From assembly GCA_030152105.1 (NCBI GenBank), contig JASLIH010000597.1:1-5350 (forward strand): DNA of 5,350 bases. The letters are read 5' to 3'. Made by a program: the position numbers and the translations under genes. Below are positions 4,688 through 5,350 of this stretch, one piece after another. Within the stretch, counting starts at the first letter, position 1. The number at the start of each line of letters is the position of its first letter. The stretch is from Actinomycetes bacterium. Its GTDB lineage: Bacteria > Actinomycetota > CALGFH01. The notes beneath the pieces are model-generated. The model saw only the letters and a program-made list of their open reading frames with translations, was not told the DNA's origin and did no database searches.

Positions 4688-5292
4688 TGCCAGCGCTCAA
4701 GGGGGTCGGGCTGCTCAAGGGGCTCGGCGTCACCCTCAAGACAATGACCCGGCCGGCCGCGACCCGGCAGTACCCGCACGTCAGGCCGGACCTGCCCGCC
4801 CGCACCAGGGGGGTGATCGCGCTCATCGAGGAGAACTGCACCGTGTGCATGCTCTGCGCGCGCGAGTGCCCGGACTGGTGCATCTACATCGACTCCCACA
4901 AGGAGCAGGTCGCCCCCAAGGAGGGCGGGCGCGCCCGCACCCGCAACATCCTGGACCGGTTCGCGATCGACTTCGCCCTCTGCATGTACTGCGGCATCTG
5001 CGTCGAGGTGTGCCCGTTCGACGCCCTCCACTGGAGCCCGGAGTTCGAGTACGCCGAGCACCAGATCGAGAAGCTCACCCACGAGATGGACACCCTCCGA
5101 ACCTGGGCCTACTCGGTCCCCGCCCCCGACCCCCTCGAGGAGGGAGCGGTCGAGCCCAAGGAGATCGAGTCCGCCCGCAAGGCCCGCGACGCCATCACCG
5201 CCAAGGCGGCCGCCGCGGCGGAGCAGGCCCGGGCCGCGGCCCCGCCGGCCGCCTGCAGCCGGAAAAGCTGCGGCACCTCGTCGAACACGTAG
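4687..5292 (+). CDS. nuoI: NADH-quinone oxidoreductase (complex I) subunit I, 2x[4Fe-4S] ferredoxin type; 3' end disrupted
   Basis: NuoI carries clusters N6a and N6b, which conduct electrons towards N2 in NuoB. Both motifs are intact: C51-x2-C54-x2-C57-x3-C61-P and C99-x2-C102-x2-C105-x3-C109-P. The N-terminal amphipathic stretch (1-35) and FAIDFALCMYCGICVEVCP are typical. After about residue 140 comes an unusual charged, alanine-rich tail (EEGAVEPKEIESARKARDA and onward), which I recall in relatives from partial actinobacterial clusters. The ATG at 4687 is supported by GAGGTGG (4673-4679) at a 7-nt spacing. Recognisable NuoI character stops near residue 187-189 (about 5247-5253). The remaining residues to the TAG at 5290 are antisense of a GAF-domain gene, so the true C-terminus is probably missing and the 201-aa length should not be trusted. 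Confidence 0.9.
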   Translation: MPALKGVGLLKGLGVTLKTMTRPAATRQYPHVRPDLPARTRGVIALIEENCTVCMLCARECPDWCIYIDSHKEQVAPKEGGRARTRNILDRFAIDFALCMYCGICVEVCPFDALHWSPEFEYAEHQIEKLTHEMDTLRTWAYSVPAPDPLEEGAVEPKEIESARKARDAITAKAAAAAEQARAAAPPAACSRKSCGTSSNT

Positions 5293-5350
5293 ATGGCTCC
5301 AACCTCCGTGCCCGAAAGCTGGACTGCCTTGGCGACGATCGTGGACAGCA
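5247..5350 (-). CDS. Fragment of a GAF-domain signalling protein, cut at both ends
   Basis: On the minus strand, from base 5348 downward, the codons read LSTIVAKAVQLSGTEVGAIY and then VFDEVPQLFRLQAA. This is the characteristic opening of a GAF sensor domain: an amphipathic helix (IVxxAVxLSG), then the GAIYxFDE strand-turn, then the FRLxA strand. Such domains occur in histidine kinases, cyclases and GGDEF proteins; which one cannot be told. The upstream part lies beyond the window. Downstream, the homology ends at about 5247, where the strand becomes antisense of nuoI, and the frame merely drifts on to a stop at 4884-4886. Codons here (AAG GCA GTC CAG CTT, GAG GTT GGA) are less GC-rich at third positions than the nuo genes. 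It is either a gene truncated by rearrangement or sequence from elsewhere joined in assembly. Confidence 0.75.

Follow-up and report, generated by a model that had tools for sequence, protein, structure and literature searches.

The 5,350-nucleotide stretch of DNA analyzed here (the window), which comes from an uncultured actinobacterium, carries on its plus strand the nuo genes nuoA, nuoB, nuoC, nuoD, nuoH, and nuoI. These are preceded by a divergent gene for a membrane sensor histidine kinase and followed, near the right end, by a minus-strand fragment of a GAF-domain gene (Table 1). Nothing lies between nuoD and nuoH, whose ends overlap. The genes at the two window ends are both cut, so the window is probably a whole, short contig.

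Table 1. Coordinates and supporting evidence for the features of the window.
Feature	Position	Strand	Evidence
Membrane sensor histidine kinase (HisKA_3), cut by window start, divergent from nuo operon	2..1066	-	Pfam HisKA_3, E 1.5e-6, 29.1 bits, residues 286-352
nuoA	1147..1512	+	NCBIfam NF005839 (subunit A), E 1.2e-38, below model cutoff
nuoB	1503..2021	+	TIGR01957, 213.3 bits, above cutoff
nuoC	2021..2509	+	TIGR01961, E 2.6e-27, below cutoff
nuoD	2511..3698	+	NF004739, 420.9 bits, above cutoff
nuoH	3695..4687	+	NF004741, E 6.5e-90, 301.7 bits, just under cutoff of 305
nuoI residues 1-189, true sequence, gene cut at end	4687..5253	+	Identical to P0150, P0241, and P0242 across 189 residues
Join; 3 to 4 bases fit both sides, within GCCGGCCGCC (5244-5253)	5250..5253		NuoI identity to 5253; GAF homology down to ~5250
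Foreign piece, 33 GAF-domain residues of the multi-GAF histidine kinase type, frame open at window end	5250..5348	-	27/33 identical to P0088; two Sinorhizobium plasmid genes at 61% (tblastn)
Spurious end of nuoI frame (CSRKSCGTSSNT, stop)	5254..5292	+	Antisense read through GAF piece

NuoI proteins contain two 4Fe-4S motifs of the form CxxCxxCxxxCP. Both are present in the NuoI translation of the window (CTVCMLCARECP and CMYCGICVEVCP), and Pfam Fer4 matched it over two stretches (42.4 bits, above the cutoff). The curated cutoff of the NuoI model TIGR01971 was missed (92.6 bits against 113.05); despite this shortfall, we still place the gene as nuoI on the basis of its position in the operon and of relatives named NuoI.

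Gene order in relatives

We compared the window with the best 80 of 464 loci encoding a relative, most of them from Streptomyces. In 79 of the 80, the gene after nuoI is nuoJ, on the same strand; the sequence of the sole exception (L026) ends 41 bases past its NuoI match. The top locus, L001, is contig CALGFH010000301.1 of an uncultured actinobacterium metagenome-assembled genome. It is 95% identical to the window across 663-5246 in a single alignment, and the DNA identity stops at 5246. Beyond this point L001 continues with the remainder of nuoI (445 amino acids in all) and three further genes, which we read, from gene order and their translations, as probable nuoJ, nuoK, and the start of nuoL.

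The left end of the window was examined in the same way. Among the relatives compared, none was colinear with positions 1-662. The first 134 residues of the histidine kinase are 78% identical to a copy adjoining nuoA on the contig of L001, and because that contig also has the kinase beside nuoA, we do not call the left window end chimeric. In another genome (G014), DNA similarity 5′ of nuoA ends at window position 1062 and the kinase was not seen beside nuoA, so that the kinase is not a conserved neighbor of nuoA.

Junction between nuoI and an antisense GAF sequence

Two protein searches for NuoI relatives gave 3,121 and 7,866 matches, of which 120 each were listed. Three of the 240 listed proteins (P0150, P0241, and P0242, from contigs of 9,909, 10,981, and 1,129 bp) match the window NuoI without a change over 189/189 residues; this identity is at the protein level only, and the proteins may come from the same sample as the window. 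All three differ from the window at residue 190 (P instead of C), and after residue 189 they continue with PAATPAPAGAGAAAGSG, which the window does not have. They also carry a long Ala/Pro-rich tail that is missing from the window, where the nuoI frame comprises 201 codons and ends in CSRKSCGTSSNT. No word of this window tail, and hence no tail shared through residue 201, occurred in any of the listed relatives (0/120 and 0/120); the best ungapped matches to its 12 residues were 5 and 4 residues in the two sets. Since residues 1 to 189 are identical in three proteins with another tail, the true NuoI sequence of the window ends at 5253. NuoI-like sequence had originally been predicted to run to about 5247; the homology was confirmed, but its end lies about 6 bases further on.

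The NuoI tail of this clade has a structure of its own. In L001 (4028-5365) and in P0150 the C terminus is extended by a long Ala/Pro-rich stretch in which a unit like IEVDQETYDRLIEAGEPERTARAKAKAAYARK occurs twice. Pattern matching found such a unit twice in 113 and once in 7 of the best 120 of 3,121 matches of the first search; among the best 120 of 7,866 matches of the second, 4 proteins had two copies, 61 had one, and 55 had none. Apart from Fer4 types, Pfam detected no family in the NuoI of L001. P0241 (283 amino acids) equals P0150 (425 amino acids) up to ...KAEARAAQ and then passes straight to the final REQS; it looks as if a stretch with the second repeat unit had been deleted, either really or through assembly collapse.

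On the opposite strand, the translation of positions 5348-5250 is LSTIVAKAVQLSGTEVGAIYVFDEVPQLFRLQA, whose closest listed relative is P0088. Identities to the 120 listed relatives (of 7,175 matches) were 19 to 27 of 33 residues, with a median of 21; the query of this search was a Sinorhizobium GAF domain and not the window piece, and closer relatives may lie outside the 120. With a 36-residue piece, tblastn of a plasmid collection of 7.3 billion bases returned two records, both from Sinorhizobium (E 8e-5 and 2e-4), annotated as "ATP-binding protein" and "GAF domain-containing protein." The matching Sinorhizobium segment lies inside a PF13185/PF01590 match, in the GAF domain directly before HisKA. 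Pieces of 32 and 36 amino acids alone had no match in Pfam, as expected for a fragment, and a PDB search with the GAF piece gave nothing at E 10. At the DNA level, a plasmid search with 5243-5350 returned 12 records with short matches only, none covering 80%. The original reading of the minus strand from the window end as a GAF domain that stops mid-domain is thus borne out by P0088 and the Sinorhizobium matches, and GAF similarity is present in the minus-strand translation.

The residues following residue 33 of the GAF piece locate its end. The listed relatives have T (117/120; A in 2/120), Y (97/120), and G (117/120) at these positions, and the window has A, G, and G, of which the third agrees with the relatives and the first two do not. 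Because 5241-5253 is already covered by the identical NuoI copies, we place the end of the GAF homology near 5250. Together, the two homologies indicate that two different sources meet in a sharp join at 5250-5253, and both genes are broken at one point, as had been proposed from the sequence.

Features of the join itself were also compared with the original prediction. The GC-rich stretch put forward as possible microhomology is present (GCCGGCCGCC), but only 3 to 4 of its bases, 5250-5253, are supported as common to both sides. No direct repeats were found within 5150-5350. The same interval contains six pairs of inverted repeats, and one of them (5204-5219/5239-5254) ends at the join, where none had been noted before; because folding of 5195-5265 was no better than that of shuffled sequences (z of 0.30; 120/200 shuffles as good), we do not build on this repeat. 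When 5230-5350 was compared with the DNA of G001, the genome to which L001 belongs, 41 matches were obtained, all of them short; the best had an E value of 0.0014, and the top two lie within 5232-5261 and span the join.

Composition and relatives of the terminal piece

Base composition is lower on the GAF side, as predicted, with a GC content of 61.9% at 5254-5350 versus 70.2% at 1-5253. Plain GC content is a weak signal here, since 412 of 5,156 windows of the same size are equally low. The codon signal is stronger: GC3 of the 33 GAF codons is 28/33, and none of the 1,177 overlapping stretches of 33 codons taken from the nuo genes is as low (minimum of 29, mean of 32.4).

The GAF piece was absent from all 80 nuo loci (0/80 at an E value of 1e-3). 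It had no match in G001, an empty result that by itself shows little. One genome among 198 of the phylum of G001 had a match, as did one among 100 relatives of G001, and both times it was G085 (54%); absence from the other relatives is a weak negative because the query is short (36 amino acids). As a control, the GAF query recovered 2/2 Sinorhizobium plasmids, which had been found with the same query, so that the control shows only that the search sees a 62% match. At the DNA level, the GAF kinase gene of G085 matches window positions 5248-5343 (70%, E 1.9e-4). A kinase of this type therefore does occur in the phylum, and the match leaves room for an actinobacterial donor. The named relatives among the listed matches come mostly from rhizobia and other soil Alphaproteobacteria (Sinorhizobium, Mesorhizobium, Rhizobium, Microvirga, and Nordella), and these names suggest soil Alphaproteobacteria as the donor group. 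We keep this as a suggestion because P0088, the closest listed protein, comes from a metagenome contig.

Origin of the contig end

A chimera is clearly favored, because nuoI copies are intact elsewhere, nuoJ follows nuoI in 79 of 80 loci, and the foreign piece amounts to 97 bases (5254-5350), about one short read, with which the window ends. We attribute the window end with high confidence to a chimera formed in vitro or during assembly, whatever the donor, and probably to one whose donor was another organism. The original prediction, which held a chimera to be at least as likely as recombination, is supported by these observations, and the window end is very likely an artifact without biological reality. 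The 3 to 4 common bases are too few for a clean overlap merge, which makes a chimeric molecule or read a likelier bridge than pure assembler error. We infer, rather than observe, an origin in vitro, which is likely. Two DNA fragments would have been joined during library making, either by ligation or, within the GC-rich stretch, by template switching. The resulting chimeric read would then have added roughly one read length to the contig, which would have ended there for want of further supporting reads.

Such a chimera could also have formed within a single genome, with an in vitro step or the assembler attaching a GAF piece from elsewhere in the same actinobacterial genome. The GAF kinase of the related genome G085 speaks for this version, which we nevertheless regard as unlikely: G001 has no match and only one of 100 relatives does (short as the query is), the codon bias differs, and the better matches are to rhizobial or metagenome proteins.

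Had the event been real, a rearrangement or a horizontal insertion in a single strain would have broken nuoI after codon 189, set a GAF-kinase gene antisense to it, and cut the operon before nuoJ. The sharp join in a GC-rich stretch could permit microhomology-mediated joining, and an inverted repeat ends at the join. That repeat folds no better than shuffles, however, and no direct repeat accompanies it. The event would have broken two genes at once and cost the operon nuoJ and the rest of its genes; identical NuoI copies are intact, nuoJ comes next in nearly all loci compared, and the foreign piece does not share the codon bias of the operon. We therefore consider a rearrangement very improbable. 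The corresponding biological picture, a minority strain with a broken nuo operon and a horizontally acquired GAF-kinase gene in which the rest of complex I was lost or rearranged, would be slightly less probable again.

That nothing is broken, with this species having a naturally short and divergent NuoI tail and the GAF reading being due to chance, has a negligible probability: NuoI tails do vary in length and sequence, but all three proteins identical over 189 residues have another tail, and neither the 27/33 identity of the GAF match nor its E value of 8e-5 in a collection of this size fits chance, so the intact NuoI proteins and the GAF matches refute it.

If the contig end is a chimera, as we conclude, the terminal 97 bases of this record are not trustworthy, and annotation of this actinobacterium should take neither a truncated NuoI nor a GAF gene from them. 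Chimeric ends can be tested for simply, by comparing a contig end with copies that are identical to it but intact.

Comparison with known systems

The part of the window that we regard as sound resembles the Desulfitobacterium nuo operon described in PMC11238625 in its order nuoA-B-C-D-H-I and in the absence of nuoEFG between nuoD and nuoH. It differs in that the window operon is actinobacterial and belongs with a long Ala/Pro-rich NuoI tail; the absence of nuoEFG is judged at the locus only. The terminal piece is 61% identical over 36 amino acids to the Sinorhizobium plasmid kinases WP_180941921.1 and WP_161951906.1, in the GAF domain that precedes HisKA, of which the window carries a fragment only.

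For the join, a parallel is provided by RNA-seq assemblies of viruses, in which, according to PMC8376068, chimeric singletons act as bridges and foreign pieces usually lie at contig extremities. The chimeras of that paper are rRNA-virus contigs from RNA-seq, whereas both sides of the join in the window are bacterial genes and are known from sequence alone. The two cases share a foreign moiety at the contig extremity, a sharp join, and two unrelated sources.
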